Below, piece after piece: positions 22,589 through 64,000 of a stretch of DNA of 64,000 nucleotides (positions are counted from its first letter, which is position 1; every line of letters starts with the position of its first letter). The notes below the pieces were generated by a model, which did not search any database, was not told the DNA's origin, and worked only from the letters and a program-made list of their open reading frames with translations. The stretch spans positions 1-64,000 of IMG/VR virus record IMGVR_UViG_3300020455_000008. One strand, 5' to 3'. This DNA is from a virus. A program made the translations under genes and the position numbers.

Positions 22589-23429
22589 GTTCTCTAGCCT
22601 AAGTGCTGAAGGGTTCCTGCCTGTCAGTCGAGTATTTCTTACTAATTATCGAAGTTTAAATATCAGTATGGAAGAAGCTATGCTGGTATTGCATTTATTG
22701 GATCATAGTTGGTTTGGTAACAGAGAGTTCCCTAGTGCAGAGTATTTTGCAAAGAAGACAGGTAAAAGTGGTCAAACAGTTAGGGCTTATCTTCGTTCAC
22801 TCAGTCACAAAGGCTACTTAATACCTATTCGCTCTGAAACAGGTGATAAGACCTTTGATTACAGTCCACTTCTAGGCGCACTAAAGGACTTAGCTGGTGT
22901 TCCCGTTGCTGAAGAAGAGAAGCCAAAACCTATGCATGACGAGTCTCCCAAAGATCCACTTAAAGAGCTGATAGATACGTCAATGGCTATGGCAAAAGAC
23001 AAGTCTAAGAAAAGAGCGCCTGTGCAGACGAAACCCGCACATTGGCGCAGATTGCAAGCGTTTAACGACAAGACTCCCGAACAATATAATGCTAAAGATA
23101 TGGAGTTTGTTATGGCTCAAGAATGGCGTAAGAAATGGCAGTCTCCGCCCCCACGATTCTTTGGTCGGGATATGAAGCATACCAAGGATCTGATCAGTAT
23201 TTATGGTGCAGATGTCGTTTCTGATGTAATCACTAAGTGTGTAGCTGACTGGGAGTCAATTGCGCCTAAGTTTAATATTAAGGGCTACCCTAGTATGCCC
23301 ATATTTTGGGGGTTTCGTAACTCCATATTCCCGTTAATGATAGATGGCGAACTTGACAACAAGCCCTCGTGGGGCAGTCAGTTTAGCGATACAGAAGACA
23401 CTCCCGATGGGGGTGAGATAGGATGGTAA
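22581..23429 (+). CDS. DnaD-like replication initiator / helicase-loading protein
   Basis: A 282-aa protein from ATG 22581. The N-terminal winged helix (FLTNYRSLNISMEEAMLVLH, then TGKSGQTVRAYLRSLSHKGY) resembles DnaD/RepA-N-type initiators. A Lys/Ala/Pro linker (residues about 105-155) leads to a helical C-terminal domain. The next genes encode a DnaC-like ATPase and a DnaB-like helicase, an arrangement seen where a DnaD-type protein marks the origin and recruits the loader. The exact family is inferred from layout plus the winged helix. Confidence 0.65.
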   Translation: MIEFSSLSAEGFLPVSRVFLTNYRSLNISMEEAMLVLHLLDHSWFGNREFPSAEYFAKKTGKSGQTVRAYLRSLSHKGYLIPIRSETGDKTFDYSPLLGALKDLAGVPVAEEEKPKPMHDESPKDPLKELIDTSMAMAKDKSKKRAPVQTKPAHWRRLQAFNDKTPEQYNAKDMEFVMAQEWRKKWQSPPPRFFGRDMKHTKDLISIYGADVVSDVITKCVADWESIAPKFNIKGYPSMPIFWGFRNSIFPLMIDGELDNKPSWGSQFSDTEDTPDGGEIGW

Positions 23430-37428: not shown

Positions 37429-38811
37429 ATGAAAATTTATCTGAGTGGAGTAGTGAGGAAAGATCGCTTAGGTCTTTTGATTGAAGCTGGTATTCAAAAC
37501 GTGGTTATTGACTACTCAGTAGCTAAGGGCTTCTCAGTTCAAGAGTTTGAGCAGATTGCCAATCACTTTGATAGCATAATGTTAGAATATGACCTCTCCA
37601 GTCAGTGGTCTAAGATCAAATATCTGTGGACCAGCTCAGACTTACGTCATGCAAAAGATATTGAAAAGCATGGTTCACTAGAAGAAGCACAAACTTATCA
37701 CATACAGAGAATCACTAAACGTGTAGCAGATTACTTTATCTTTGCTCAGTCTATTCAGCACGTAGTGGACGTGGTATGGACACCCCATTTACCTATTGAG
37801 TATGAGTTTGAACCTAACGAAAGTATTGAACAGCAAAAAATAGGGAGACTAAAAAAAGTTTTCAAAAACTTTTCTGACTATATTTACAACTGTTCTCACA
37901 TAGGTATTCCCAATGATGTTGGGTTACAAGACGTTAAAGACGAAATAAAGCCCCATATTGCTTCTCTAAAGTCGTTTGGGATAAAAACACATAGGTGGGG
38001 TAGGGCTGACAAAGAAACAGCTCTCACAGGCCTATTTTGGAGTTCGTCCTCTTCTAACTGGGTAAGTGGGTCAAAACATGGGGTCACTTTTGAGTACGTA
38101 GGAAATCTAAAGCTAACTACGTATCATGGGTCTAAGGGTTCGGGTAAACAGATTAGAACTAAGCTCAAATCAAAATGTGAAACAATTGGACTTGACCACA
38201 ATCTCTTAATGAACGATGACCGTAAGACTGTAAATTTATGGAATCTACATCAATGGAAGCTTTTGTCTAAAGATGTAGATTTTGTTAGTGGGTACTGGTC
38301 GACGAGGGAGCGGGATGTGAAAGATAAACAGCTTAGTGTTATACAAAATAACTCAAATTCTCAGCTTGCAACTCAAGACCAAATTGGCTCATACTTACGG
38401 AATTGTAATTCATGCTACCTAAGCGCAACTTGCCCAGTATACGAGTCGGATTCGACTTGTAAGATAACGTCTACACCGAAGGTTGAGACACCTAATGACG
38501 TGCAGGCTCTACTCAATCAAGTGATTCAGATCCAAGGGGAGAGAGTTCTTTTTGCTTCTATGTCAGAGCGAATTCAGAACGCTGGAATCAACCCCGAAGT
38601 CTCCAAGGAAATGGAGACACTTACAAAACTAATGAAAGACGCTAAAGAGATCACCTCCGTTGGTGGGGGTGACGAAGTTACGATTCGAGCTAAGGGGTCG
38701 GGTGTCATATCGAGATTGTTTGGCGGATATGGGCGCAGTGGTGGTGGTTCAAAACCATCTACATCGGAGACTATAATAGATGTCTCCCCAATGGAGTCAA
38801 AGGATGACTAG
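37429..38811 (+). CDS. TIM-barrel-like protein, possibly TGT/DpdA-related (tentative)
   Basis: A 460-aa protein. The start MKIYLSGVVRKDRLGLLIEA and the segment GIKTHRWGRADKETAL followed by LFWSSSSSNWVSGSKHG recall the TGT-like family (usual giKvHgfG...l..yp.~SvDSssW..G), which inserts deazaguanines into DNA or tRNA. Residues about 315-345 add four Cys (NCNSCYLSATC, then C) as a likely zinc site. A Gly-rich basic tail follows. No other preQ0-pathway gene is visible in this window, so the DNA-modification idea is a hypothesis. A dispersed-motif copy lies inside (37850-37873). Confidence 0.35.
   Translation: MKIYLSGVVRKDRLGLLIEAGIQNVVIDYSVAKGFSVQEFEQIANHFDSIMLEYDLSSQWSKIKYLWTSSDLRHAKDIEKHGSLEEAQTYHIQRITKRVADYFIFAQSIQHVVDVVWTPHLPIEYEFEPNESIEQQKIGRLKKVFKNFSDYIYNCSHIGIPNDVGLQDVKDEIKPHIASLKSFGIKTHRWGRADKETALTGLFWSSSSSNWVSGSKHGVTFEYVGNLKLTTYHGSKGSGKQIRTKLKSKCETIGLDHNLLMNDDRKTVNLWNLHQWKLLSKDVDFVSGYWSTRERDVKDKQLSVIQNNSNSQLATQDQIGSYLRNCNSCYLSATCPVYESDSTCKITSTPKVETPNDVQALLNQVIQIQGERVLFASMSERIQNAGINPEVSKEMETLTKLMKDAKEITSVGGGDEVTIRAKGSGVISRLFGGYGRSGGGSKPSTSETIIDVSPMESKDD
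37850..37873 (-). repeat. Dispersed 24-bp motif, intragenic copy K
   Basis: Core AGTTTTCAAAAACTTT within the coding sequence of the 37429 gene. It keeps the core but not the ATAG end; it may be a chance AT-rich match. Confidence 0.4.
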
Positions 38812-46409: not shown

Positions 46410-46686
46410 ACCAAAAGAGACATACGATCAATGTATCCTCAAAATTGAGGATGGTATTGTTTATTACTGCGTAGACTCAATACTAAACATATTGACTGAC
46501 GATTTTGAGTCGTGGGTCAAAGACAGCCCAAGTTTCTCAGAACAAGATGAGAGTTACGAATATCAAGCTATAACACTAGCGTTAGAATGGTTTGATCACA
46601 ATATGCACAGTGCATATCTTGGTAGGTATTCACCTAGATATGTATTTAACACAGAAGACATGGAAAATAATGAATGTGGATCATAG
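46378..46686 (+). CDS. Small acidic protein overlapping methyltransferase start
   Basis: A 102-aa acidic protein (ILTDDFESWVKDSPSFSEQD) overlapping its upstream neighbour by 32 nt and the methyltransferase start by 17 nt. Likely co-translated. Function unknown. Confidence 0.5.
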   Translation: MTEKPQTIYLEPKETYDQCILKIEDGIVYYCVDSILNILTDDFESWVKDSPSFSEQDESYEYQAITLALEWFDHNMHSAYLGRYSPRYVFNTEDMENNECGS

Positions 46687-48034
46687 CGAAAAACTTACCC
46701 ATATATCCCTCTGCACAGGCTACGGGGGGATTGATCTTGGACTCAAACGAGCTATCGGATCAGTTAGCACAGTCTGTTATGTGGAGATCGAAGCCTTCGT
46801 CATCGAAAACTTGGTTGCGAAGATTGAAGCGGAAATCATCGACCCCGCGCCTATTTTCACAAACCTTAAAACCTTCCCTTGGGAACACTTTAGTGGACGA
46901 GTGGACATCCTCAGTGGAGGGTTTCCTTGTCAACCATTTAGTGCCGCAGGAAGAAGGGGCGGAGATGAAGATCCCCGACACCTGTGGCCATACATTGTCG
47001 ATGGAATCAAACGGCTTGGAAGACCTCCCATTGTTTTCTTCGAGAACGTGGAGGGAATCCTCAGCTCAAAGCTCAAGGGTGACCAATGGTCAGACCCCGA
47101 AGGAACACCCGTTTTGCTTCATGTCCATCGAGAGCTGGAAAGATTGGGTTACAGAGCAACGTCAAGCGTATTCTCAGCGGCTGAAGTTGGCGCAACACAC
47201 AGAAGAAAAAGGGTCTTTATTCTCGGTGTCAGAAATGACCTCTCAGACAAAGGTAGGGAATGGATCACTCAAAGCATGGGCAACACCAAGGGCGAGCAAA
47301 ATAGGTTCAGAGAACTTGGAGAAGTGGAAGAAGAGAGCAGAGAAAGGTCAAGTCAGCACAATGCCACTCGGTTTACAAGTGGAGGTTTCAGAACAGCATA
47401 CCCCGCACCAAGGGGAGCAGAGCAATACCCCTATGAGCCACCAAGAACTCAATTGGGCAACTCCCAACACGATGGATCACCTATCCCCGAAAAGTGCGGA
47501 AACCCTAATGAGACAGGCCACAACTGTCAGAAAGGGCCGCAAATATCCATCGAATCTGAGAGAGCAGGTCGATCCGAAGTCTATGCAAATATACAAGGAA
47601 ACGAACTGGGCAACCCCCACGTCAAGGGATTGGAAGGGGGCGTACTCAGAGGAGGGTCTGATCTTAAATCCAAAATGGGTTGCACTATTACCCGATCAAG
47701 TAAAAGAGAATCAGAAAATGTGGACAACCCCGATCAGTCGAGATTGTTACGAGATAGAAATGAAACAACAAATACCGAATCGGAAAGACGGGAAGACTCG
47801 CTTAGACACGATGCCGAGACAGATTCATCATCAAGAGGGGTACAAGGGGAAATTGAATCCGAGGTGGGTGGAAATGTTGATGGGTTTACCCATTGGATGG
47901 ACTATGCCGAGTTGTACGAATCCTGTGATAGTAGAATTGACGAGCTTAGGATGTTGGGAAACGGAGTTGTACCTGACACCGCCAAAAGAGCCTTCACAGT
48001 TTTGTGGCAAATCTTACGTAGAGGAAGATATTAA
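46670..48034 (+). CDS. dcm: C5 DNA cytosine methyltransferase
   Basis: A 454-aa enzyme from ATG 46670. Motif I SLCTGYGGIDLGL binds SAM; motif IV GGFPCQPFSAAG holds the catalytic Cys; motif VI is FFENVEG; motif VIII is EVGATHRRKRVFILG; motif X is MLGNGVVPDTAKRA. The region between VIII and X (residues about 205-415) is hydrophilic and low-complexity where a target-recognition domain is expected. This is the stretch most overlapped by the second frame. Probably protects phage DNA from host restriction. No cognate nuclease is certain, though 45867 is a candidate. Confidence 0.88.
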   Translation: MNVDHSEKLTHISLCTGYGGIDLGLKRAIGSVSTVCYVEIEAFVIENLVAKIEAEIIDPAPIFTNLKTFPWEHFSGRVDILSGGFPCQPFSAAGRRGGDEDPRHLWPYIVDGIKRLGRPPIVFFENVEGILSSKLKGDQWSDPEGTPVLLHVHRELERLGYRATSSVFSAAEVGATHRRKRVFILGVRNDLSDKGREWITQSMGNTKGEQNRFRELGEVEEESRERSSQHNATRFTSGGFRTAYPAPRGAEQYPYEPPRTQLGNSQHDGSPIPEKCGNPNETGHNCQKGPQISIESERAGRSEVYANIQGNELGNPHVKGLEGGVLRGGSDLKSKMGCTITRSSKRESENVDNPDQSRLLRDRNETTNTESERREDSLRHDAETDSSSRGVQGEIESEVGGNVDGFTHWMDYAELYESCDSRIDELRMLGNGVVPDTAKRAFTVLWQILRRGRY

Positions 48035-48056
48035 TGATAGTAATACTAATCAGTAG
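46674..48056 (+). CDS. Long frame (460 codons) overlapping dcm in +1 frame
   Basis: ATG lies 4 nt after the dcm start (ATGAATG) and the frame runs 22 nt past the dcm stop with no interruption. The product has repeated Trp-Ala-Thr-Pro units: KAWATPRASKIG, LNWATPNTMDH, TNWATPTSRDWKG and MWTTPISRD. Two LNP.WV units (LNPKWVALL, LNPRWVEMLMGLPIGWT) also occur. I recall these units (WPTPTA.DWKG and LNP.FVEWLMGFP.GWT) from other phage proteins in dcm loci. The N-terminal 150 residues look like a frameshadow of the conserved MTase core. Translation is unproven. Confidence 0.45.
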   Translation: MWIIAKNLPIYPSAQATGGLILDSNELSDQLAQSVMWRSKPSSSKTWLRRLKRKSSTPRLFSQTLKPSLGNTLVDEWTSSVEGFLVNHLVPQEEGAEMKIPDTCGHTLSMESNGLEDLPLFSSRTWRESSAQSSRVTNGQTPKEHPFCFMSIESWKDWVTEQRQAYSQRLKLAQHTEEKGSLFSVSEMTSQTKVGNGSLKAWATPRASKIGSENLEKWKKRAEKGQVSTMPLGLQVEVSEQHTPHQGEQSNTPMSHQELNWATPNTMDHLSPKSAETLMRQATTVRKGRKYPSNLREQVDPKSMQIYKETNWATPTSRDWKGAYSEEGLILNPKWVALLPDQVKENQKMWTTPISRDCYEIEMKQQIPNRKDGKTRLDTMPRQIHHQEGYKGKLNPRWVEMLMGLPIGWTMPSCTNPVIVELTSLGCWETELYLTPPKEPSQFCGKSYVEEDINDSNTNQ

Positions 48057-50740: not shown

Positions 50741-50763
50741 AAGTTTTTGAAAACTATTTATAG
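50740..50763 (+). repeat. Dispersed 24-bp motif, copy F
   Basis: AAAGTTTTTGAAAACT then ATTTATAG. It starts at the last base of one stop codon and contains the TTA that is the stop of the convergent methyltransferase, so it makes up the whole junction. Confidence 0.8.
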
Positions 50764-52179
50764 TATACCTTTGAACAGTGGTAGGTCTTCTAAGTCTTTC
50801 TTCTTGACTTCGACTTCCTCAGCTTGACCACCCCAGTAAGCTATGCGCTTCTTAGCAATCTCAACGTACTCCTCGTTAAGCTCAATGCCAATCGCATTCA
50901 CTCCTTCTACAGCGCAAGCGCACAGGGTAGACCCACTGCCTAAAAATGGCTCTAAAACAGTGCCATCCTTTGGGCAGACTAAACGCAGGCAGTACTTCAT
51001 TAAATCAAGTGGCTTGACCGTTGGGTGGTGATTAGCCCTCTTACCCGATGGCGTTCTAGTTTTCTCTAACGACCCGTCTATACGACCATTTAATGTACCA
51101 AAGTTTTTCTTCTCTAAATCTTGTAGTCCAGCTTCTTTCTCTTTCTTACTTGCTTTCGATGTATAGAAGAACCTACTTGCCCCACCCTTATCTCCGTACC
51201 CTTCTGAACCATAAGCCTTCCAGCCTACACCATCCTCGACTGAGGAGAGCTGCCCCTTGCCAGCTACTCCCCAAGCCCGACTCTTCTTCCCAGCTCTACC
51301 ACTTTTCTGAATACCGCTTTGTTGATCGACCGCAAGTGCAGCTTCCTCATCTAGTATAACATTGGCAGGGAAACGACCTTTGGGTTTGTGCATTTGAATT
51401 TTACTACCGACTTTTGCTATGTGACCTGTCCACCCACTTTCCTTATAAGAAGCAGTTTTCTGTTCATGCATTTGGGTGAAGTCGATATTTTCACTGTTAT
51501 CATATTGCACTCTAGTATCATCGATATTGATTGCACCTACGCCCCACGTCATTACATTGTCTGCAATAGATCCTTCGGGTGGTTTTCTAATCATTATGAT
51601 GGGTTCATACGCTGGCTTGAGTGCAGTACCCCAACCCTCCCACTTCTCAGCTTCGGGGCATTTAGCTTGGTACTCTTCGACAGGATTTGACGTTAGTTTG
51701 TTTTTCTCTTCTACATCACTAGCTTGATACTGACTCGCAGTGGGGATTGCTCTACCCCTATTAGGGTGACCAAACTTCTTATCAATCGCTAATGATACGT
51801 TATGACTTTTTGGGAACCCACTGCCGTACAGGTACATCAAAGTATCCCTCACCTCGAACCCAGCTAAGCGCAAACTAATACTCATTAGGTCTTGGGTTCT
51901 TGAGGAAGCGAATACTAAACCATGCGCTCCAGGCTTTAGGACTCTGTATACTTCTTTCCACAAACTGGGAGGAGGCACCCAACTATCCCAAGACTTATTC
52001 ATAAACCCCTTACCCTTGGGTGTCCAAGACTCTCCACTTGTCCATGCTCTTAAGCAATCTTCTACATTCTTCGATGAGGTATTCCCCATACCGTAGGGCG
52101 GATCAGTGATTAAGCAGTCTAGTGAGTTGTCGTCTAATGTCTTAAGTATCTCTTCAGAGTCTCCATTTAGTATTTGCAT
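50758..52179 (-). CDS. N4/N6 DNA methyltransferase (DPPY type)
   Basis: A 473-aa leftward gene from ATG at 52179 (the frame is open to 52230). MQILNGDSEEILKTL and LITDPPYGMGN form the N-terminal catalytic motif IV. TVLEPFLGSGSTLCACAVEG and IGIELNEEYVEIAKKRI give the C-terminal SAM-binding motif I. The DPPY-before-FxGxG order is the beta class, which methylates adenine N6 or cytosine N4. The central 200 residues carry the specificity region. Typical of phage orphan methylases. It is read from a transcript that starts beyond 52801. Confidence 0.85.
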   Translation of the reverse strand: MQILNGDSEEILKTLDDNSLDCLITDPPYGMGNTSSKNVEDCLRAWTSGESWTPKGKGFMNKSWDSWVPPPSLWKEVYRVLKPGAHGLVFASSRTQDLMSISLRLAGFEVRDTLMYLYGSGFPKSHNVSLAIDKKFGHPNRGRAIPTASQYQASDVEEKNKLTSNPVEEYQAKCPEAEKWEGWGTALKPAYEPIIMIRKPPEGSIADNVMTWGVGAINIDDTRVQYDNSENIDFTQMHEQKTASYKESGWTGHIAKVGSKIQMHKPKGRFPANVILDEEAALAVDQQSGIQKSGRAGKKSRAWGVAGKGQLSSVEDGVGWKAYGSEGYGDKGGASRFFYTSKASKKEKEAGLQDLEKKNFGTLNGRIDGSLEKTRTPSGKRANHHPTVKPLDLMKYCLRLVCPKDGTVLEPFLGSGSTLCACAVEGVNAIGIELNEEYVEIAKKRIAYWGGQAEEVEVKKKDLEDLPLFKGIL

Positions 52180-52190
52180 TGTCTCTCTCA

Positions 52191-52214
52191 AAAGTTTTTG
52201 AAAACTATTTTTAG
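52191..52214 (+). repeat. Dispersed 24-bp motif, copy G
   Basis: AAAGTTTTTGAAAACT then ATTTTTAG. It includes the stop codon of the leftward gene 52211-52801 and ends 12 bp before the methyltransferase start codon. Confidence 0.8.
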
Positions 52215-52801
52215 GTGGTGGCCCGCACAAATGAGTAGATCTGCTCTAGTAGTTTCTCAGACCAATACTCTCTCTCAAGGCCCATGATTTTAGGGGATTG
52301 AACTCTAAGTACCTGAACGCCCTTAGACTCCATTAACCCTAGCCACGTTTCATACAATTCGTCAAGAGCCACAAACTGAGTATTCGATAAGGGTGAGTGA
52401 CTAGCCGCACACTCAAAATACACAATGAGCGTTGGGAGCTGTATATCATCTGACATAAGATTGTCATAAAACATCTTCAATCGCTGGTAGTCCTCATCAC
52501 TCATACCAAGTCTCTCTCTATACTCCCACAGCGCAAAGGTCATCGCTGACCATACAGATCTCTCATAGAATGTAATCGGCACATGAGATCCCCACTGCTC
52601 ACCTAAATGCCACTGAGAAAAAAGCGCAAGCATATAGCTCTCCCACTTCTCTATATCCCAATCTCCATCTAATACACTCTCCTCCTCTCCCCATATCAAA
52701 CGACTCACACCTAAGTTCTCCAGCTCCCACATAAATGCTCCCACTCCACTACCCACTATACCCTCAATCGAAATCCTAGAAAAAGCGCGCAAAGAATACA
52801 T
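52211..52801 (-). CDS. Second deoxynucleoside-kinase-like protein, degenerate P-loop
   Basis: A 196-aa leftward gene. RISIEGIVGSGVGAFMWELE stands where I.IEGNIGSGKSTll..L is usual, so the Lys is Val and the Ser/Thr is Gly. TFYERSVWSAMTFALWEYRE is the ERS box, shared almost word for word with the 48439 protein (ERSVWA/S). LPTLIVYFECAASHSP matches pdliVYl. The two are divergent paralogues flanking the cyclase and methylase genes. RBS is AGGGGG before ATG 52801. Its + strand is G-poor. Confidence 0.6.
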   Translation of the reverse strand: MYSLRAFSRISIEGIVGSGVGAFMWELENLGVSRLIWGEEESVLDGDWDIEKWESYMLALFSQWHLGEQWGSHVPITFYERSVWSAMTFALWEYRERLGMSDEDYQRLKMFYDNLMSDDIQLPTLIVYFECAASHSPLSNTQFVALDELYETWLGLMESKGVQVLRVQSPKIMGLEREYWSEKLLEQIYSFVRATT

Positions 52802-54486: not shown

Positions 54487-54963
54487 TTAGAATCTCCAGT
54501 TAGGATATTTGATAGGGTGAGTTGGGTTTAGTTCTGTGATGAGCTTCATCATGCGCTCAGTGGTGTCTATTGAGTCAATGCCGCAGATGAAGCACTCGAT
54601 CATCTCTCTGCGTACACTCTCCTTCCATCCCTTCTGTAGAAGGATCTCTGACCAAGTGGCTCTTATGCCCTGCTCTGTTAGAGCGTATAATGTTTGTGCC
54701 ACTCTCTTGAAAGTAATTGCTCTACCGAACTCTCCACTCTCTGAGTAGAGTTTGTTGAGCGCCCAAAAGTGTCCAGCGACTGAGTGCTGGGATTCTAGTG
54801 TCCACTGACCGAACACTGAGGTGTTAGCCTGAACAGATCCACACTCAACTCTGTTACCAAGGAGGAGCGTAGTTCTGAAAGCTTCTCCCCATGTTATGTT
54901 GGGGTATGCTTTGCGGAGCTGGTGAGCGAAGCGATTGGTGTTAGCTGTAATGTGCTTTCTCAT
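54487..54963 (-). CDS. First gene of leftward operon, unknown
   Basis: A 158-aa leftward protein. The start FAHQLRKAYPNITWGEAFRT and a central helical part (GRAITFKRVAQTLYALTEQG) suggest a helical, perhaps DNA-binding, protein. It follows a promoter-like sequence at 55001-55029. No family recognised. Confidence 0.5.
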   Translation of the reverse strand: MRKHITANTNRFAHQLRKAYPNITWGEAFRTTLLLGNRVECGSVQANTSVFGQWTLESQHSVAGHFWALNKLYSESGEFGRAITFKRVAQTLYALTEQGIRATWSEILLQKGWKESVRREMIECFICGIDSIDTTERMMKLITELNPTHPIKYPNWRF

Positions 54964-55000
54964 TTTCTTGTCTCTTTCTGTGAGCCTTAACTACTTCTAT

Positions 55001-55029
55001 ACAATAACCTACCTATTAATAGTTTTCAA
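55001..55029 (-). promoter_or_regulatory. Leftward promoter overlapping dispersed motif copy H
   Basis: On the minus strand TTGAAA (55024-55029), 17 bp, TATTGT (55001-55006), 38 bp upstream of the 54963 start. TTGAAA is part of the dispersed motif (55013-55036). Confidence 0.5.
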
Positions 55030-55036
55030 TAACTAT
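55013..55036 (-). repeat. Dispersed 24-bp motif, copy H
   Basis: On the + strand CTATTAATAGTTTTC then AATAACTAT; here the motif's TTGAAA also fits as a -35 element for the leftward operon. Confidence 0.7.
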
Positions 55037-55885
55037 TTTCACATTCTGCAAAAAAAATACCACACCCCTTCGATGGTCGATGGGCGGGTAGTTGGGTAAG
55101 GTCAACCACTGGGTAGTGATGAGCCAACACTAAAAAAAGACCACCCCAGGGTAGAGGAGGTCATTACATATAAGACAGATGTTCAGTACTCAGATGAGCG
55201 CAGAGTAGTTTACCCATTTTCAAAATACCACCCATCCTTCCACCTACCTTTGGTAGAACAACCTCGATGAGGGGGTGAGGTTGCGTTATACGCTCATTTC
55301 TCTACCCCCGTTAATAGCCCTTGGATCTGTGGTCGGCTTAGACGAGCGCACAGGGCTAAATACGAACCCCACCAAAATCCACACTAGGGGTAAGGGTCAC
55401 TCATCGGTATACACAAGAGGGTACTGGGTAAGCGCCAAGTGGTGAGCAGCCATCACCCAAAAAATCCCATAGGGAAGGCCACCCCCTCCTCACCCTTCTA
55501 GGGATATGGATGAGAGGGGCTAAGGCCCAAAGGGCTAGAGAGGTGATTAGACGTTTCAAAGGCTTCCATATCTACTACTAACATAACTAGTTAAGCTCTC
55601 ATAGATGAGAGCGGGTTAATAATATATAACAGATGAGTCACCTCTCCACCCCCATAGAAACACAACCCTCTATGGGGCGCAACAGGAAACATACATACGT
55701 ATGATGAGTATACAGGGGGGAGGGTGTGATGAGCGCCGCCAAGGGTAAGGGCTAAAGGCAACCACTCACCTCAGCCCATAGGAGGTGTATACCGTATATA
55801 CACTAAAGGCAATAAGGCGCATAAAGGTGATGAGTGGATAACTCATCTACATACCAGTATCCCTCTATACACAGAGTGGATGAGC

Positions 55886-55922
55886 GCCCCGAAAAATTTT
55901 ACTAAGGGATTTAGCAATAAAC
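55886..55922 (+). repeat. 37-bp element, copy 1 (GCCCCGAAAAATTTT...GCAATAAAC)
   Basis: Starts GCCCCGAAAAATTTT and ends GCAATAAAC, same length and ends as the copy 99 bp downstream; the centre differs. Confidence 0.75.
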
Positions 55923-55984
55923 GGTACTAAGGGATAAACTCTAAGAATTCATAAGGGATGAGTCTATTTATCATAAGTCGTCAA

Positions 55985-56021
55985 GCCCCGAAAAATTTTG
56001 GAAGAGCTTTTTGCAATAAAC
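55985..56021 (+). repeat. 37-bp element, copy 2
   Basis: Second copy of the GCCCCGAAAAATTTT ... GCAATAAAC element, directly before the G+C-only stem. Confidence 0.75.
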
Positions 56022-56029
56022 AATTACGT

Positions 56030-56068
56030 GCGCGCGCCCGCGCCCGCCCGCGCCCGCCCAGGCGCGCG
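56030..56068. repeat. G+C-only tract with 8-bp GC stem
   Basis: 39 bp with a single A/T base: CGCGCGCC (56031-56038) pairs with GGCGCGCG (56061-56068), enclosing CGCCCG/CCCGC repeats. Extreme for an AT-rich genome. Confidence 0.85.
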
Positions 56069-56180
56069 TAGCAGCAGCCTTGGATGCCGTCATAGCGGGC
56101 TTTTTTGACGACACACCAGCAGCCCTAAAATAGCTTCGATGTCGTGAGAGTCGACGTTTGCGCACCAGTACTGAAAGGTC

Positions 56181-56194
56181 GTTCAGTACTGAAC
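56181..56194. promoter_or_regulatory. Palindrome GTTCAGT-ACTGAAC
   Basis: Perfect 14-bp palindrome. Half-sites recur at 55181, 56240, 56327 and 56353, with a second palindrome at 58779-58798. Likely operator of a phage repressor or initiator. Confidence 0.6.
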
Positions 56195-56326
56195 AAAATA
56201 CCATGTAAGACAAGAGACTACAAAGGGCCTGTATTACCTACTGAACAAGTAATCATGTAGTCTAGTCTCTCACCTTGTGACTATATAATTGATCTAAAAA
56301 GGGCCTGATCAAATTACTGTGTACTT

Positions 56327-56361
56327 GTTCAGTGTATCCACTTGTTCACACTACTGAACAA
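56327..56361. repeat. Inverted repeat TTGTTCAGT ... ACTGAACAA
   Basis: The arms (about 56325-56333 and 56353-56361) pair perfectly over 9 bp with a 19-bp loop that holds another TTGTTCA. Part of the GTTCAGT/ACTGAAC set. Confidence 0.6.
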
Positions 56362-56468
56362 AGAAACAGTAAAATATGGCATTTACTTCTGGAATTTCGT
56401 TATGTACCTTATGTTTATCAAGTTCACTGTGAGCTTGTCTAATACATTCATCCTTAAGGGGATAACAC

Positions 56469-56598: not shown

Positions 56599-56889
56599 AT
56601 GATAACAAGTAAAGGAAAACAACGGTTAAAGCGTCACAATGAAAAGAGCGCTTTTAAGCGCTCTACGTGGGTATCGTCTTCTCACTCTGTCAACTTAGAG
56701 CGAGGTAAAAAGTATCTAGTTAAAGCAGGGTATAAACTAGGAACTGCTAACGATGGGTATTTCACTGATCAAGTAAAATTCGATGATGGCGAGACTATCA
56801 TTTTATATACGTCTGTAGACGCATATAAAGCCTTATTTAAAGCAAATATTGTCGCTTGGGAATTACAAGGCTACAATTATGATTATTGA
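56599..56889 (+). CDS. Small basic protein, rightward operon
   Basis: A 96-aa protein from ATG 56599 behind TAAGGAGG. The basic N-terminus (KGKQRLKRHNEKSAFKRSTW) suggests nucleic-acid contact; the C-terminal half is beta-type. It overlaps the next gene by 11 nt. No family recognised. Confidence 0.6.
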   Translation: MITSKGKQRLKRHNEKSAFKRSTWVSSSHSVNLERGKKYLVKAGYKLGTANDGYFTDQVKFDDGETIILYTSVDAYKALFKANIVAWELQGYNYDY

Positions 56890-57604
56890 ACAATTGCGTG
56901 TCTTCGGAAACCTTGCGTTATTTGCACAAGCAAACAGGTTTAATAATAATCTTTCTAATCAGAAGATGAAAGCCGATCAATACAGCCTTGAAGGAGATTT
57001 CATTCAATATACTATTCTACCTCTTGAGCTTGTTAAATTAGGACAAATGAAGGGAAAAGGAATTACTCAATATGCACAAGATATAGCCTGCGCTTTAAGT
57101 TGTGAATTTACAGTCAGAAATGGGGGTGGCTGCTATGTCAACAATGAAATAAGAACAGCAATCAAAAGTGCGCATAAGGTACTTAATAGTCGTTCACTCA
57201 GTTTTAAAGCGTATAATCCTAAAATTCGCTTGACTGTTTGGGGTGATGTTGGGCGCTTAAACGCAGAGGGTAAAGCCTACATTTTAAACCTTGCTCAAAA
57301 TGCTGATAGACTAAGTTATACAGCTGATTTTCAAAAAGAAAGCATGCAAAAATTCAAGGGCTTTTTCTTGGCGAGTGTGCAGTCAATACCTCGGCTCTTA
57401 ACCGCTCAGTCGTTAGGATGGAAATCCTACATTGCAGATAGTGCGACTTATGAATTTGTAAAGGTTCAAGGAATTGAAAATTTATATAAATGTCCTCAAA
57501 ACAACAAGGGAGACGCGGTGAGATTCGGTTGTTCAACTTGTAAAATCGCGTGTAATGGCTTGCGATCTGTTGTCGCTTATAGCGTACACAGTCAAGCGTT
57601 ATGA
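56879..57604 (+). CDS. Phage protein with C-terminal Cys motif (DUF7227-like)
   Basis: A 241-aa protein from ATG 56879. Segments IRLTVWGDVGRLNAEGKAYI, LSYTADFQK, FLASVQSIPRLLTAQSLGW and a C-terminal KCPQNNKGDAVRF then CSTCKIACNG recall a widespread phage family (usual R..~GD.g..., YT..w, aSvds...a...Gw, CP.s......C..C.~C.G). The Cys residues probably bind a metal. Function in the family is not known. Sits in the rightward operon after the control region. Confidence 0.55.
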   Translation: MIIEQLRVFGNLALFAQANRFNNNLSNQKMKADQYSLEGDFIQYTILPLELVKLGQMKGKGITQYAQDIACALSCEFTVRNGGGCYVNNEIRTAIKSAHKVLNSRSLSFKAYNPKIRLTVWGDVGRLNAEGKAYILNLAQNADRLSYTADFQKESMQKFKGFFLASVQSIPRLLTAQSLGWKSYIADSATYEFVKVQGIENLYKCPQNNKGDAVRFGCSTCKIACNGLRSVVAYSVHSQAL

Positions 57605-58778: not shown

Positions 58779-58798
58779 AACTGAACAACTGTTCAGTT
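58779..58798. promoter_or_regulatory. Palindrome AACTGAAC-AACT-GTTCAGTT
   Basis: Perfect 8-bp arms with a 4-bp spacer (GAAC-N4-GTTC). Same half-sites as at 56181, so the 56.2-58.8 kb operon is bracketed by two of these palindromes. Confidence 0.6.
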
Positions 58799-58841
58799 GC
58801 CCCAAGACACCCATCCCCCATACCTGCGCAAGCAACTTTTA

Positions 58842-58975
58842 CACTAATGTAAATTGAGTTGGGTTATGTCCACTATGCACTAATGTAAACTGAGATGAGT
58901 TATGTCCAACCATTATGCACTAATGTAAATTGAGAGGGTTTATGTCCAACCATTATGCACTAGGGTAAATTGTGT
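58842..58975 (+). repeat. Iteron array: CACTAATGTAAATTGAG ... TTATGTCCAACCATTATG
   Basis: Direct repeats begin at 58842, 58878, 58918 and 58958 (periods 36, 40, 40); the fourth is partial. Units share CACTAATGTAAA(T/C)TGAG and TTATGTCC. Candidate initiator-binding iterons or an activator array for the 59057 operon. Confidence 0.8.
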
Positions 58976-59056
58976 TTGTATGATTGGGTATTGTGGGTTT
59001 GTGTGTATATATGTTTTATTAGTTGTGAGAATAGACAAGAGAGAGAGAGATAAGAT

Positions 59057-59932
59057 ATGATGACATTAAGAAGGGGAGACAAGGGTAGTTTTGTATTGTT
59101 TCTGCAAGAGCGATTGAATTTTCATGGTTTTTACACGAGTCAGGGTGGAGAGTTTAATGTGGGAACGGAGCGTACGTTAAAGGAGTTCCAGGTGTTATGG
59201 AATTTGGAGGTGAATGGTATATGTGGGGATGTGGAGTGGGGTTGTTTGTTGCAGAATTTTGGTTGGAGTCGTGGTGGTCATTTTGAGCGTAAGCGATTAC
59301 CTGAGTTATTATTGGAGCGAGTGGAGAAGGAGGGGGATGTGAGTGTGGAGTGTATGGGTGTATTGGGGGAGATGTTAGGATATTTGGGATGTGAGGAGCG
59401 TCCATTTGGTCGTAATCGTGGTAAGGAGGTATTGGAGTTGGTGCAGGGAACGTGTGTAACGGGTGAGCGTAGGTTATTGGGTAGTGAGTACAAGCGTCAT
59501 TGTGGTTTTAGTAATCTGAAGTATTTCCCATTATGGAGTGTGATTGGATTGAGTACGATCTTTGCGAAGTATTTTGAGGCGGATGATTGGAGTGAAGCGC
59601 CATTTGGTGATTGGTTGGGAACAGTAGACCAGTTATTGATATGGGGGGAGGGGCATGGTGTGTTGCGTGTTGGAGATTTGGGGTATTTGCGTCCAGGGGA
59701 GATCTTTGTGATAGGGATGGTGGATGTGGATTATAGTGTGCGTGGTTATGATGGGGGTGCACGTCCGAGGGGTGGTCATTGTGGTTTAGTGTTATGGGAT
59801 TGTGGAGATGGTACAGTGCAGACGGTGGAGTGTAATACAGCGAATGGTGTACGAGTGAGGAGGAGAAAGAAGTCTCAGTTGTATGGTGTGATCAATTGGG
59901 AGGGTGCATTGGAGGGGTTGGGATATGAGTGA
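59057..59932 (+). CDS. PG-binding + CHAP-like cell-wall protein
   Basis: A 291-aa protein. Residues 1-60 are a peptidoglycan-binding type 1 domain (GDKGSFVLFLQERLNFHGF, TLKEFQVLWNLEVNGICGD). The C-terminal half has YLRPGEIFVIG, GGHCGLVLWDCGDG and VECNTANGVRVR, the PGDI/H.GiV/tvEgN pattern of CHAP or NlpC-type endopeptidases. The expected WC catalytic site reads LWSVIGLS, so the Cys appears replaced by Ser. It may be an inactive or altered wall enzyme. Codons are extremely G/T-rich. Confidence 0.6.
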   Translation: MMTLRRGDKGSFVLFLQERLNFHGFYTSQGGEFNVGTERTLKEFQVLWNLEVNGICGDVEWGCLLQNFGWSRGGHFERKRLPELLLERVEKEGDVSVECMGVLGEMLGYLGCEERPFGRNRGKEVLELVQGTCVTGERRLLGSEYKRHCGFSNLKYFPLWSVIGLSTIFAKYFEADDWSEAPFGDWLGTVDQLLIWGEGHGVLRVGDLGYLRPGEIFVIGMVDVDYSVRGYDGGARPRGGHCGLVLWDCGDGTVQTVECNTANGVRVRRRKKSQLYGVINWEGALEGLGYE

Positions 59933-60290
59933 TTATATATATGATCGTGAGTTATGTAGGGAGCGAGCGATTTGTTTGAAGTTGGGTGGTTTAACGATAC
60001 GGGAGGTGATGTCCGTTTTAGCGGATGAGGGTTATATGAATAGAGATACGGGTCGTGGTTATGGTTATGAGAGGGTGAGAGTATGGTGCAAGGGTATCTG
60101 TGACCAGCGTGGTTACCGTCATGTGCATTTACGTGGTATGAGTATAGAGGAGCGTAAGTTACATGATGAGCGTCAGCATGAGATCCGATTGCAGCGTGTA
60201 CGTGATTGGCGTGAGCGCAATATGGATCGAGTAAGGGAGTATGACCGCTGGTACTATGAGAATTTTAGGCGTGTGTTTCGCAATTCTTAG
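59925..60290 (+). CDS. HTH-like small protein
   Basis: A 121-aa protein from ATG 59925, overlapping the previous gene by 8 nt. GLTIREVMSVLADEGYMNRD then YERVRVWCKGI is a resolvase-like helix-turn-helix. The C-terminal half is Arg/Glu-rich (ERQHEIRLQRVRDWRERNMD), probably a long helix. A DNA-binding regulator is likely. A dispersed motif follows its stop. Confidence 0.55.
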   Translation: MSDYIYDRELCRERAICLKLGGLTIREVMSVLADEGYMNRDTGRGYGYERVRVWCKGICDQRGYRHVHLRGMSIEERKLHDERQHEIRLQRVRDWRERNMDRVREYDRWYYENFRRVFRNS

Positions 60291-60313
60291 TACTTATTGA
60301 AAAGTATGAATAG
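60290..60313 (+). repeat. Dispersed 24-bp motif, copy J (diverged)
   Basis: GTACTTATTGAAAAGT then ATGAATAG, beginning at the last base of the stop codon; convergent with the leftward gene ending at 60325. Confidence 0.55.
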
Positions 60314-60324
60314 GGGTGTGTGTA

Positions 60325-60675
60325 TTAGTTATATTTGAGTTCTTTAAATACGGCCAGTTGGAAGAGAACGTCAGCGACTTCTGCGTCTTCATCATTGTGG
60401 ATGATGAGTTGCAGGTATGTGGGGTATTCTTTAGCCATGATATGTAGTGCTTGGTGTAGATCCTGTAGTGTGATGATATGTATTTTGTTGTCTTCTATTT
60501 CGTGAATGATGAGTGACCAGTCTTTATTGAGTTCGAGTAGGTTTTGTTCTTTTGGTATTTTGGTAGTGGCCCAGTATGAGATACCAGCTTCGATGGCAGT
60601 TTCTAGGACTTCAGCGATTCTGTAGTTGGGTATGGTGTATTGTATATGAACGGTGCATGATGTGTGTGTTGTCAT
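60325..60675 (-). CDS. Small protein, leftward GT-skew operon, unknown
   Basis: A 116-aa leftward protein with VHIQYTIPNYRIAEVLETAI and a C-terminal VADVLFQLAVFKELKYN. The domain (IPNYRIAEVLETAIE.GISYWA) recalls phage proteins annotated DUF-like of unknown function. Overlaps the upstream gene by 1 nt. Confidence 0.55.
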   Translation of the reverse strand: MTTHTSCTVHIQYTIPNYRIAEVLETAIEAGISYWATTKIPKEQNLLELNKDWSLIIHEIEDNKIHIITLQDLHQALHIMAKEYPTYLQLIIHNDEDAEVADVLFQLAVFKELKYN

Positions 60676-60974
60676 TAGTGTATGCCTTTAAGTATTTGGA
60701 TATAGTCTTGTTGTGTTTGTGTGTGTATTTGTTTGATTTGTTTGAGTACGGACTGTTTTTTATTGAGATGTAGGGTAGTGGGTAGTTTATGTTTAACTCT
60801 TTGGGCGCGCCATCGGTAGATATTGCTATCTAGGACGAAGAGGGCGAGTTGGTGTAGGTATGTTCGGTTGCTAGCGTGTGTATACTCTTGTGAGAAGGTG
60901 TGCCATAGATCTCGATCTTCGTGTGTCGTGTATTGTAAGAGTTCTTGGTAGTATTGTGTTTGTGTGTGTGTCAT
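60675..60974 (-). CDS. Small Thr/His/Gln-rich protein, unknown
   Basis: A 99-aa leftward protein (MTHTQTQYYQELLQYTTHED). Unusual richness in Thr, His and Gln follows from the A/C-rich coding strand rather than from function. No family recognised. Confidence 0.5.
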   Translation of the reverse strand: MTHTQTQYYQELLQYTTHEDRDLWHTFSQEYTHASNRTYLHQLALFVLDSNIYRWRAQRVKHKLPTTLHLNKKQSVLKQIKQIHTQTQQDYIQILKGIH

Positions 60975-60999
60975 GTTGTATATCCGTTAATAATGTCTT

Positions 61000-61353
61000 T
61001 TAGAGATACTGTAAGAGTTTAGCTCCGATTTCATGTGGGATGAGATCACAGGGCATAACGGTCATTGTTTCTTTGTGTGAGTGTGCTAGGTCATCGAGCC
61101 AACAGTTGTCTTCGATATACAGGGCACGATCGACAAAGAGGTGAACATCTACGCTGGTAAAGGATGTGGGGTAGAAGAAGAAGCTAATCTCTGTTCTTTC
61201 GTCATCTTTGTATGCAGTGATTCTGAGAGCTGGATCACTTGAGTCTCCTTGGATCTCAGTATTGATTTTTCCTGTGTAGTGTTGATTGAGGTATTCTACA
61301 ACTTCTTGTAGGAAGAGGTATTGCCCACTTTTCATATGATCTAGTAAGTTCAT
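61000..61353 (-). CDS. Small protein, leftward operon, unknown
   Basis: A 117-aa leftward protein with a central beta sheet pattern (ISFFFYPTSFTSVDVHLFVD) and Asp-rich loops. Overlaps the next gene by 4 nt. Not recognised. Confidence 0.5.
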   Translation of the reverse strand: MNLLDHMKSGQYLFLQEVVEYLNQHYTGKINTEIQGDSSDPALRITAYKDDERTEISFFFYPTSFTSVDVHLFVDRALYIEDNCWLDDLAHSHKETMTVMPCDLIPHEIGAKLLQYL

Positions 61354-61673
61354 TGTGCTTCATCCTTATTTGGGAAGTCGAAGCAGAGTGTAGACTTCGT
61401 GGGTGTATGTGTCATGGTGGTTGCCCCGTAGGGGTGGTTAGCGAGTCCAGAGATAGTTATGCCAGCCACAGTGGAGTTATATTTTGAGTTCCTTCTGCAT
61501 TTGATTTCGATGGTAGTATCGTTGACTTCAGATATTTTGACTTTCATTGCATTGGCGAGTGGTGTGATTGCTTCGACTAGGTGACCTTTAACGATAGTGG
61601 GATAGATCTCGTTAGGTGTTAAGCCTTGATCGATTAACTCATGTGCAGTGTGTAATAGGTGAGCGTATGACAT
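61350..61673 (-). CDS. Small protein, first of leftward operon, unknown
   Basis: A 107-aa leftward protein (ITPLANAMKVKISEVNDTTI) read from the promoter at 61724-61752. RBS AAGGAG. Not recognised. Confidence 0.5.
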   Translation of the reverse strand: MSYAHLLHTAHELIDQGLTPNEIYPTIVKGHLVEAITPLANAMKVKISEVNDTTIEIKCRRNSKYNSTVAGITISGLANHPYGATTMTHTPTKSTLCFDFPNKDEAQ

Positions 61674-61723
61674 TGTGTTCTCCTTAGAGAGTGTTTAGTA
61701 AAAAAGCACTAAGCTTGATACAA

Positions 61724-61752
61724 GATATACCCCACTATTTAAGGTAGGTCAA
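61724..61752 (-). promoter_or_regulatory. Strong leftward sigma70-like promoter
   Basis: On the minus strand TTGACC (61747-61752), 17 bp, TATATC (61724-61729), 51 bp before the 61673 start. One of the best matches in the window. Confidence 0.65.
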
Positions 61753-61782
61753 TAGGGAAAAATAAAAATATTTTATATTGGC

Positions 61783-62274
61783 TTAATCCTGTTCCATTTC
61801 TTCAAAGCATTTCTCTTGGTTGAAGTATAAAATATCTGTGTATATATCGATGATATGTTGTGCATAGTTGTACTCTGATCGACCTTGTTTGCATTTCCCT
61901 TTAAGCCCTCTGTTGTACTGGGCAAGTGCTTTGCATTTCTTTTGGTTATTAAGGTCTAGGAATTTCTTGAGTGCCGTTATCCCTGCTTTAGTATAGTTGC
62001 ACTCACCTTCTTTTGGGCAGTGGTATTGAGGTAGAACACCTAATGGGCCTTTTGCGCCTTTATGGCTTGTGATATTCTCGAATCGAGTCTCATCATATGC
62101 GACTGAGATGGCGAGTATGGGGTCTACCTTTTGTTTGATGGCTTCCTTAGCAACTTCTTGGCAGATTGCCATTCGTTTTGGGATAGTCTTAGAGATTTTC
62201 TTTTGGTAGCTGATCGAAGCATTAGGTGACATGATATTCATCATAATGATCCAGCATAGGTTTGTTACGTTCAT
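61783..62274 (-). CDS. Lytic transglycosylase-like protein (SLT type)
   Basis: A 163-aa leftward protein. PILAISVAYDETRFENITSH (catalytic Glu in the ..EtrF motif), GAKGPLGVLPQYH and LAQYNRGLKGKC then YAQHIIDIY follow the order E.....GA.G..Q..p......a.yN.G...Y..~i of SLT transglycosylases. The N-terminal 22 residues are hydrophobic and could export it. It would cleave peptidoglycan glycans, either at lysis or in tail-tip entry. Overlaps rusA by 4 nt. Confidence 0.75.
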   Translation of the reverse strand: MNVTNLCWIIMMNIMSPNASISYQKKISKTIPKRMAICQEVAKEAIKQKVDPILAISVAYDETRFENITSHKGAKGPLGVLPQYHCPKEGECNYTKAGITALKKFLDLNNQKKCKALAQYNRGLKGKCKQGRSEYNYAQHIIDIYTDILYFNQEKCFEEMEQD

Positions 62275-62663
62275 TGTGCTTCCTTTATTGTGACCTCAGT
62301 CCTTGGTTGGTTACTACGCTCTGCATAGTATTTGTATGCGTGAATGGTGCATACCTGAGCGTCATCTTTGAGTGTTTTATTAAGTGCGTCTAGTACGGCC
62401 TTGATGATATTGTCAAGGTCGGGTCTTTTAGTATGTTTGATGAGTCCATCGGGGTATTTCTTAGGCATAAGTCTTTGTGGTCTTGGGAAGACAGCAAGTA
62501 ATGTGACTTCTATAGGGCCTTGTATGTCTTGTTCTTTAATGAGTGCCTTGAGTGCGTTTTCGTAGTCCTTTGTTCTTTTGGGTGTGTATGCTCTACCGTT
62601 ACCGAATCTTGGTCTGCCTTTGGGTACAGGGGTGCCCATTAAGGTGATGGTAATAGGGTTCAT
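62271..62663 (-). CDS. rusA: RusA-type Holliday junction resolvase
   Basis: A 130-aa leftward protein. TPVPKGRPRFGNGRAYTP at the start, TKRPDLDNIIKAVLDALN with the catalytic Asp residues, and TLKDDAQVCTIHAYKYY are the full RusA signature (kPDlDNl.Ka.lDaLn....dDaqV). It cuts four-way junctions before packaging. Standard length. ATGA overlaps on both sides. Confidence 0.92.
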   Translation of the reverse strand: MNPITITLMGTPVPKGRPRFGNGRAYTPKRTKDYENALKALIKEQDIQGPIEVTLLAVFPRPQRLMPKKYPDGLIKHTKRPDLDNIIKAVLDALNKTLKDDAQVCTIHAYKYYAERSNQPRTEVTIKEAQ

Positions 62664-62881
62664 TCATTTTCCCACTTACGTACACCCCAGTATTGTCCAC
62701 CATTGGCTCTATCATCATCTAGGTAAACGATGGAATATCCGTTAGTGTTGAGGTAGGCGGTTGCAGCGTGGAAACAGTCAAAGTGTGCAAGTTGGTCTTT
62801 GTTTTCAGTATCGGGGTTATAAAGGGTAACCCATGTATATGGTCGGTCGGGTCTTGTGTCTTCAATAACTATTTCTTTCAT
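62660..62881 (-). CDS. Small protein, leftward operon, unknown
   Basis: A 73-aa leftward protein with TWVTLYNPDTENKDQLAHFD and a C-terminal GQYWGVRKWENE. Not recognised. Coupled by 4-nt overlaps. Confidence 0.5.
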   Translation of the reverse strand: MKEIVIEDTRPDRPYTWVTLYNPDTENKDQLAHFDCFHAATAYLNTNGYSIVYLDDDRANGGQYWGVRKWENE

Positions 62882-63066
62882 AGTTTGACTCGCTTTCTGA
62901 CCATGTATAACTTTTGCTGTGGACCACCTTTTTTGATCATAATTTGTTTATTTGTTTTGGAGAACTGGGTGCCGTAGCCACGTTCGAGCCAAAGTTGGAT
63001 TTCTTTTTTAGCTTCCATGTAGTTGGGGGTAATCAAAATGATCTCCCAAGGGTTTGACTTTTTCAT
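62878..63066 (-). CDS. Small basic protein, first of leftward rusA operon
   Basis: A 62-aa leftward protein (EIILITPNYMEAKKEIQLWL), basic at the C-terminus (YMVRKRVKL). It begins just downstream of a divergent control region. Not recognised. Confidence 0.5.
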   Translation of the reverse strand: MKKSNPWEIILITPNYMEAKKEIQLWLERGYGTQFSKTNKQIMIKKGGPQQKLYMVRKRVKL

Positions 63067-63202
63067 TTTTTTCCTTTCTGTGTGCGTACACTTATGGAAA
63101 TGTCTATAGCACTCATGTTGAATCTCTTCAAGATTTATTTCAACATACCAACGTGTGGGTTATAATATGTTAGATACTCACTAATACTTTTGGAGGTACG
63201 TA
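63067..63202. promoter_or_regulatory. Divergent control region with ATGTTGAA/TTCAACAT repeat
   Basis: Inverted repeat ATGTTGAA (63115-63122) and TTCAACAT (63139-63146) with a 16-bp spacer, followed by TATAAT (63161-63166) for the rightward genes. GGAGG precedes ATG 63203. Confidence 0.45.
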
Positions 63203-63463
63203 ATGAACGTCAATATGGACATGGTTTTTAAGGTGATGAGCGTAGGTTTGATTCCAGCTATGTTATGGGTCAACTCGCAGTCTGTAGATATTGCTTTGTT
63301 GAAGCGAGAGCTTGAGTCGAACAAGACTCGATTAGACAAGGTAGAAGCGCAACAATCTAAGATTTTACAGGGAGTCACAGATAATCAAATTGCTCTTAAA
63401 AGCATGACAGTGACTATGAACTTTATGAAAGATATTTTAACGGATATTAAAAATGCTAGGTAA
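63203..63463 (+). CDS. Membrane-anchored coiled-coil protein (holin/antiholin-like)
   Basis: An 86-aa protein: N-terminal hydrophobic segment (VFKVMSVGLIPAMLWV), then a coiled coil (IALLKRELESNKTRLDKVEA) and an amphipathic end. Layout resembles XhlA-type or phage small membrane proteins. Its role near a second set of wall enzymes may be lysis timing, but this is inference. Confidence 0.55.
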   Translation: MNVNMDMVFKVMSVGLIPAMLWVNSQSVDIALLKRELESNKTRLDKVEAQQSKILQGVTDNQIALKSMTVTMNFMKDILTDIKNAR

Positions 63464-63782
63464 CTTTTGGCGAGGTGTGGCATTGGTTGTTTTTTGGGTA
63501 TTATGTGCTTTTGTGTATCAGTCTTTGTTACATACAGACGATTACCAAAAGTCAGCCGCTAGTACAATGGATACCGCCCCTATGAAATCTGCTAAACGTG
63601 TTGTAAGGCGTAAGCGTAAGTTAAAGCGTAAACGTAAAACTAAGAAGCCGTATTTACTTGAAGTTAGAGTAAGGGACGCTAACCCTGTTGACATTCATCA
63701 AATGGAACAACAGTTAAATCAGATGAGTATAGATGTGATTGACCTAAAGGTTAGTCAGGGGATTCCCAATGGATATAAATGA
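63453..63782 (+). CDS. Single-TM protein with highly basic stretch
   Basis: A 109-aa protein. TM helix about residues 7-26 (GVALVVFWVLCAFVYQSLL), then RRKRKLKRKRKTKK around residues 53-66, and a C-terminal alpha/beta part. It overlaps its neighbours by 11 and 13 nt. The polybasic run could contact nucleic acid or phospholipid heads. Not recognised. Confidence 0.55.
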   Translation: MLGNFWRGVALVVFWVLCAFVYQSLLHTDDYQKSAASTMDTAPMKSAKRVVRRKRKLKRKRKTKKPYLLEVRVRDANPVDIHQMEQQLNQMSIDVIDLKVSQGIPNGYK

Positions 63783-64000
63783 GTATCAAAATAAAGCAAG
63801 AGAGACCGCCTTGTACCCTACAGAGCATGGGCTTACCTACTGTACTTTAGGTTTAGCGGGTGAAGCGGGTGAAGTTGCGGATAAGATTAAGAAGATTATT
63901 CGTGATAAGAACTGTGTGGTGAGTGAAGAAGACCGCATGGAACTAGCAAAAGAATTAGGTGATGTATTTTGGTATTTAGCAAATCTCTCCTTTGAGCTAA
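63770..64000 (+). CDS. mazG: MazG-like nucleotide pyrophosphohydrolase (partial, 3' end outside)
   Basis: First 77 codons of a gene cut by the window end. LGLAGEAGEVADKIKKI and ELAKELGDVFWYLANL are the MazG helix motifs carrying the metal-binding ExxE and ExxD residues. Such enzymes hydrolyse (d)NTPs or lower ppGpp-linked stress signals and are common in phages that reprogramme host nucleotide pools. Confidence 0.85.

Follow-up and report, generated by a model that had tools for sequence, protein, structure and literature searches.

A noncoding region with conserved repeat arrays in uncultivated tailed phages: a candidate cis-acting control region near a predicted replication origin

A noncoding stretch of about 1.5 kb in the genome of an uncultivated tailed phage is, on balance, probably a cis-acting DNA control region that is composed of arrays of putative protein-binding sites and lies about 3 kb to the left of a predicted replication origin (Table 1). 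Its sequence elements are conserved in related genomes, are restricted to a single locus and are arranged there in arrays.

The window analyzed here, 64,000 nucleotides in length, comprises bases 1–64,000 of an 84,945-base virus record; the phage is denoted Q below. The record carries identical 77 bases at both ends and therefore probably represents a circular map. Q encodes a contractile-tail baseplate, a family A DNA polymerase, a DnaB-type helicase, a primase, a replication-initiation/DnaD-like protein (22572–23429), a thymidylate synthase, a RusA-like resolvase and two predicted DNA methyltransferases (46674–48056 and 50758–52230); no lysogeny genes were recognized among the genes tested. 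The B12-type ribonucleotide reductase (38780–41788) contains an intein with a LAGLIDADG domain, and the protein encoded at 37429–38811 matches the queuine tRNA-ribosyltransferase family (phrog_887) and has a weak match to a small terminase family. No DNA relative of Q was present among 50,697 phage records, no DNA similar to the region was found in the phage or plasmid records searched, and GTDB genomes yielded no further relatives. The comparison thus covers four genomes, all of them fragments or single metagenome assemblies: Q, G1 (IMGVR_UViG_3300028388_002189, 81 kb, syntenic with Q along its full length), G6 (contig 3300025098_000171, 32 kb, L024/L034) and G7 (contig 3300017744_000003, 73 kb, L026/L037). 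In all three relatives, a noncoding locus occupies the same position and adjoins homologues of gene 54487–54963 that are 48–55% identical. The region is about 1.5 kb long in Q and about 2.4 kb in G6, and it is cut by the contig end in G1 and G7. The break in G7 sits in a visible tandem repeat, with about three copies of a unit of about 50 bp (GAGCCATAAAAAATACCAACCCCCGCCCCCCTTCGGGGTGGGGGT) at the contig end (L026:1-160), within the same noncoding region.

Table 1. Features of the noncoding region and of the predicted origin site in the window (coordinates are window positions).
Feature	Coordinates	Strand	Remarks
Noncoding, putative control region (whole)	54964..56468		ORF content; same place in G1, G6 and G7
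Promoter-like sequence, sigma-70-like, leftward	55001..55029	-	consensus match; conservation in four genomes, by eye
A-tract followed by CCAC-rich motif	55051..55069	+	related copies at 55132, 55218 and 55459; similar motif in relatives
Eleven exact same-strand GATGAG words	55118..55962	+	same-strand enrichment in three relatives
E element	55184..55399	+	~215 nt; cores CACCTACCTTTGG, then AATAGCCCTTGG, then GCGCACAG
Inverted repeat GCTCTCATAGATGAGAGC	55595..55612		not found at this place in relatives
Inverted repeat GATGAGTGGATAACTCATC	55829..55847		
P element, copy 1 (GCCCCGAAAAATTTTACTAAGGGATTTAGCAATAAAC)	55886..55922	+	37 nt
P element, copy 2	55985..56021	+	37 nt
G+C-rich alternating tract	56031..56070		likewise after P copy 2 in G6; absent from G1
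CTGAACA half-sites	56166..56372		at 56189, 56241, 56326 and 56354
CTGAACA palindrome ACTGAACAACTGTTCAGT	58780..58797		beside the predicted origin, outside the interval of the initial annotation
Four repeats at 36–40-bp spacing	58834..58976	+	CACTAATGTAAATTGAG...TTATGTCC; predicted replication origin, outside the interval of the initial annotation

The initial annotation described the 1.5-kb stretch as noncoding, and this was borne out. There are no convincing genes: the only open reading frame of at least 60 codons is a TTG-started frame of 80 aa (55971–56213, − strand). No tRNA was found in 54964–56468, and the region contains no Rfam family match at the gathering threshold; a sub-threshold match to the C/D-box sR33 (E 0.39) was judged to be due to chance. 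At the left edge, the promoter-like sequence upstream of gene 54487–54963 reads TTGAAA-N17-TATTGT in Q and TTGACC-N17-TAGAGT or TAGTGT in the relatives, at the same position and with the same 17-bp spacing. The predicted structure of the left neighbor is all-helical, with a pLDDT of 63, too weak for a fold search. The genes to the right of the region point rightward in Q, whereas the homologue of gene 56849–57604 points leftward in G1 and G6. Because the right-hand gene faces the region in these two genomes, the region is not simply a divergent promoter; the divergent layout is specific to Q, and the conserved promoter-like sequence is found on the leftward side. The product of gene 56849–57604, which is inverted relative to its G1 and G6 homologues, contains a GDxGRLN motif and a C-terminal GCSTCxIxCxG cysteine motif and weakly matches phrog_2554.

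The word GATGAG was reported in the initial annotation to occur eleven times on one strand, and this count was confirmed. On the + strand, the word starts at 55118, 55193, 55266, 55509, 55604, 55632, 55703, 55728, 55829, 55879 and 55957, as compared with two copies on the − strand (CTCATC at 55400 and 55842) in 54964–56468. Across 2000 dinucleotide-preserving shuffles of the region, GATGAG occurred 0.2 times on average and three times at most, and in none of the shuffles did any 6-mer reach 11 copies. The word is also strict. All 18 one-mismatch variants together account for only 7 occurrences, with zero copies of GATGAH and HATGAG, and the flanking bases are mixed in Q and not shared between copies. 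A recognition word would be expected to show such exactness, without near misses or common flanks, whereas decayed copies of a longer repeat would not. The regions of the three relatives contain 9, 4 and 3 copies, in each case more than in shuffled sequences and on the same strand as in Q; altogether, the four genomes have 27 copies on the + strand vs. 3 on the − strand. Three relatives thus keep the position, the shared elements and the same-strand enrichment of GATGAG, which supports the earlier claim that the region is under selection. No helical phasing of the GATGAG spacing was found. A role of the words as starts of tiny ORFs, in the form of ATGA stop-start overlaps, was considered and rejected, given that there is no consistent Shine-Dalgarno spacing and that the frames differ between relatives (by eye). 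A literature search retrieved no paper that links GATGAG with phage and repeats.

The positions of the individual words are poorly preserved. About half of them lie at 55509–55829, in DNA that cannot be aligned to any relative, and Q 55400–55870 as a whole has no alignable counterpart; therefore, turnover must be high, and many GATGAG words have been replaced. By eye, a few positions can be aligned across genomes; one such case is CTCGATGAG following CCTACCTTTGG. In addition, every relative over-represents words of its own, namely GAGGAG and GAGCGC in G1, GATGAT in G6 and GAGCCATA in G7, and a local amplification of words would fit these data as well. According to this explanation, GATGAG has no function of its own and spread neutrally or under weak selection in a tolerated spacer between a conserved promoter and regulatory sites. 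The location of the words largely in unalignable DNA and the longer tandem repeats that run in G7 agree with such a history, but the finding that all four genomes are enriched in this word on the corresponding strand does not, and the copies in Q lack the shared flanks and near misses, the traces that duplication and decay would leave. We consider this explanation rather unlikely. An initiator-binding array, as suggested in the initial annotation, or a regulator-binding array is possible. A more specific proposition is that a polar DNA-acting system of this phage group strictly recognizes GATGAG, which might serve an initiator or a packaging protein or provide a Chi-like signal of polarity, and that the words form, together with E and P, a type of control locus that has not been described before; this is doubtful at present.

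E, P, the CTGAACA half-sites and the leftward promoter-like sequence are all better conserved than GATGAG. One copy of E is present in Q and one in G6, and two copies each are present in G1 and G7; the conservation extends over about 150 nt across the six copies. P occurs in exactly two copies each in Q, G1 and G6, the genomes that include that part. In the available sequence of each genome, E and P are confined to the region locus, with E-values of 1e-48 to 1e-53 for E and 3e-6 to 2e-9 for P. The next matches are at noise level, with the exception of a single weak match to E in antisense orientation, which also lies in the region of G6. A pattern match for E (L041) was discarded as an unrelated G+C-rich sequence of coding-like appearance. 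E was rejected as a coding sequence because most copies have stops in every frame, and the periodicity of its conservation (0.46/0.27/0.43 for the three positions) is not a normal codon pattern. P was rejected as a dispersed promoter, since it occupies a single locus per genome and its other matches in viral contigs are single, weak and AT-rich. CTGAACA usually lies 60–80 nt upstream of E; this spacing, like the element boundaries and the promoter alignment, was determined partly by eye. Because the elements were defined after viewing the same genomes, the conservation of E, P and the half-sites is descriptive and does not represent an independent test.

In Q, the cluster of CTGAACA half-sites includes the palindrome GTTCAGTACTGAAC at 56181, and an additional half-site is located at 55180, upstream of E. 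Of the 13 half-sites in Q, 8 are in the block from 55 to 59 kb (5% expected from its length), and 9 of 10 are in the corresponding block of G6 (14% expected); in G1 the half-sites are scattered, with 3 of 12 in the corresponding block. Where Q has dispersed half-sites, G6 has a tandem array of units of about 18 bp (TACTGAACGCTTGTATAG / TACTGAACACTTGATCAG, L034:3685-3950). The CTGAACA pairs (55180 and 58780 in the window) in places form GAAC-N4-GTTC-like palindromes, such as GAACAAATGTTC in the relatives, which resemble the LexA box of Gram-positive bacteria.

The initial annotation also noted that several GATGAG copies form arms of stem-loops and suggested a family of small structured RNAs. 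Both of the hairpins quoted there are present, but "several" was generous, as just two clear stems contain the word; in the hairpin at 55595, the loop must widen to 4 nt, giving a 7-bp stem. A lack of both words and hairpins in relatives had been named as the outcome that would speak against the proposal: the words are kept there, but these hairpins are not conserved. The folding energy of the region is no better than that of coding DNA, with mean z-scores in 120-nt windows of −0.56 on the + strand and −0.79 on the − strand vs. −0.48 in the rest of the window. The covariation analysis across relatives that had been proposed revealed no significant pair in the six copies of E after correction for multiple testing (1081 segment pairs; six copies give low power). 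E, and perhaps the whole region, could nevertheless act as a structured noncoding RNA, or its + strand transcript could be a sponge in which GAUGAG titrates an RNA-binding protein or a small RNA. The conservation of six E copies over about 150 nt, the strand specificity of GATGAG and an RNAalifold energy of E below that of column-shuffled controls (z −3.4 on the + strand) are all compatible with an RNA. So are the complementary segments near columns 100 and 164 of E, which have the lowest total duplex energy among the pairs tested, but the p-value for this pair is 0.18. Moreover, a conserved promoter from which such an RNA could be transcribed was not recognized. With ordinary fold energies, no Rfam family and no significant covariation, the suggested family of small RNAs is unsupported, and we regard an RNA function in either form as quite improbable.

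Another suggestion of the initial annotation, that the region is an origin, is disfavored by the strand composition, which in three genomes points to a site 3 kb to the right. In Q, there is almost no GC skew between 55 and 58.9 kb, after which it leaps to 0.68. The detrended cumulative GC skew reaches its minimum at 58924 in Q and at 6330 in G6. The largest skew steps of the three genomes (58961 in Q, 6369 in G6 and 78612 in G1) all coincide with a TTTACACT/TTATGTCC site. This site is noncoding and harbors repeats with a left part TTTACACTAATGTAAA / TTTACACT / TTTACACTAATG and a right part TTATGTCC; there are four in Q, three in the same arrangement in G6, and one copy in G1. Directly to the left of the repeats, Q and G1 have a CTGAACA palindrome, which in G1 reads ACTGAACGTGTGTTCAGT, and G6 has a half-site. 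From 58834 to 64000, the skew is extreme, starting abruptly at about 58.96 kb regardless of gene direction and fading rightward. At third codon positions it amounts to 0.56–0.87 over 59.0–61.7 kb in genes of both orientations, declining to the right thereafter (0.3–0.87 over 59–62.7 kb on both gene strands), and G1 behaves likewise; in G6, the same jump is visible in plain GC skew. The transcription of the genes themselves does not explain the skew, because the + strand of leftward genes in this stretch is likewise rich in G and poor in C. A rightward fork that leaves the + strand exposed for a long time behind it would explain the skew. The combination of repeats with a switch in strand asymmetry that is independent of gene direction is as in a theta-type origin, and judging from composition, 58.83–58.99 kb is likely to be an origin, predicted consistently in Q, G1 and G6.

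Neither a GC-skew minimum nor a step of the kind seen at theta-type origins falls within 54964–56468, and with the largest steps in Q, G1 and G6 located 3 kb further right, the main origin probably lies outside the region. It could still be the origin itself, with GATGAG or CTGAACA as initiator sites and the AT-rich P pair as the unwinding element, in which case the 58.8-kb site would have another role or be a second origin. Repeat arrays, AT-rich elements and the tandem array of ~18-bp units in G6 are typical origin features, the contigs of two of the four genomes end inside the region, and the noncoding region that contains the origin of the ICP1 satellite measures 2.7 kb and comprises four repeat families (PMC7145576). 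Set against the near-zero skew over 55–58.9 kb and the location of the biggest step of each of the three genomes at the neighboring site, these features leave an origin within the region unlikely.

The reading that we prefer, a cis-acting control region, would combine these elements as follows. The arrays would consist of the strict, strand-asymmetric GATGAG words, one or two E units, most of them with a CTGAACA operator upstream, the P pair and the CTGAACA cluster, and proteins would bind to them. The conserved promoter at the left edge would serve the operon that starts with gene 54487–54963. A phage or host regulator that recognizes CTGAACA pairs would occupy the region as well as the palindrome beside the 58.8-kb repeats and could thereby couple the firing of the origin with early transcription in the leftward direction. 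GATGAG would be read by another factor, whose 6-bp specificity would be strict and polar. The GATGAG region is tied to the predicted origin by the CTGAACA sites common to both, and to the leftward operon by the conserved promoter-like sequence. The readings weighed here are not mutually exclusive, and their probabilities are not required to add up to certainty.

Taken together, the analysis maps conserved cis-acting sites and predicts an origin in a group of uncultivated phages for which the searched collections contain no close isolate. From 59 to 64 kb, the strand asymmetry is extreme and independent of gene direction, which makes one-way replication from a defined site testable. Should a dedicated reader of GATGAG exist, the word would add a new case of short, exact and polar DNA words being concentrated in a control locus of a phage.

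Several known systems share features with this locus. The pac site of phage P1 contains TGATC(A/G) hexamers that are also Dam methylation sites. As in P1 pac, a short segment of the phage genome contains several exact hexamers at scattered positions, and GATGAG might accordingly mark a packaging start read by the small terminase subunit. The exact array, at one place per genome and on the same strand, and the 77-bp identical ends of the record, which are consistent with a circular map, conform to this possibility. However, GATGAG is a different word and not a Dam site, the region is distant from the terminase genes (the gene for the large subunit is 9 kb away, at record position 65517), and a small terminase was not identified in Q; a pac site is thus very unlikely. 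In common with iteron-type origins, such as the O sites of phage lambda and the RepA iterons of P1, Q has short tandem repeats (four at 58.8 kb) beside AT-rich DNA and encodes a replication-initiation/DnaD-like protein, and G6 has tandem units of ~18 bp; in contrast to these origins, the repeats in Q lie away from the initiator gene, and the GATGAG words are dispersed and out of register. The RNA-based prophage origins of cluster A mycobacteriophages likewise involve a noncoding region implicated in replication without an adjacent rep gene, but they depend on an expressed noncoding RNA and belong to temperate phages (PMC7157519). The closest published layout is the noncoding region of PLE, the ICP1 satellite, which is a mobile element associated with a lytic tailed phage (PMC7145576). 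Only a single one of its four repeat families is a proved origin iteron (PMC7145576), a warning not to take each repeat for an initiator site. The PLE region holds a read-depth peak and RepA iterons (PMC7145576), whereas in Q the skew places the origin 3 kb away, at a noncoding site of its own, and a RepA_N gene was not identified. Nevertheless, both are kilobase-scale noncoding regions that are situated between operons and contain several repeat families (PMC7145576).
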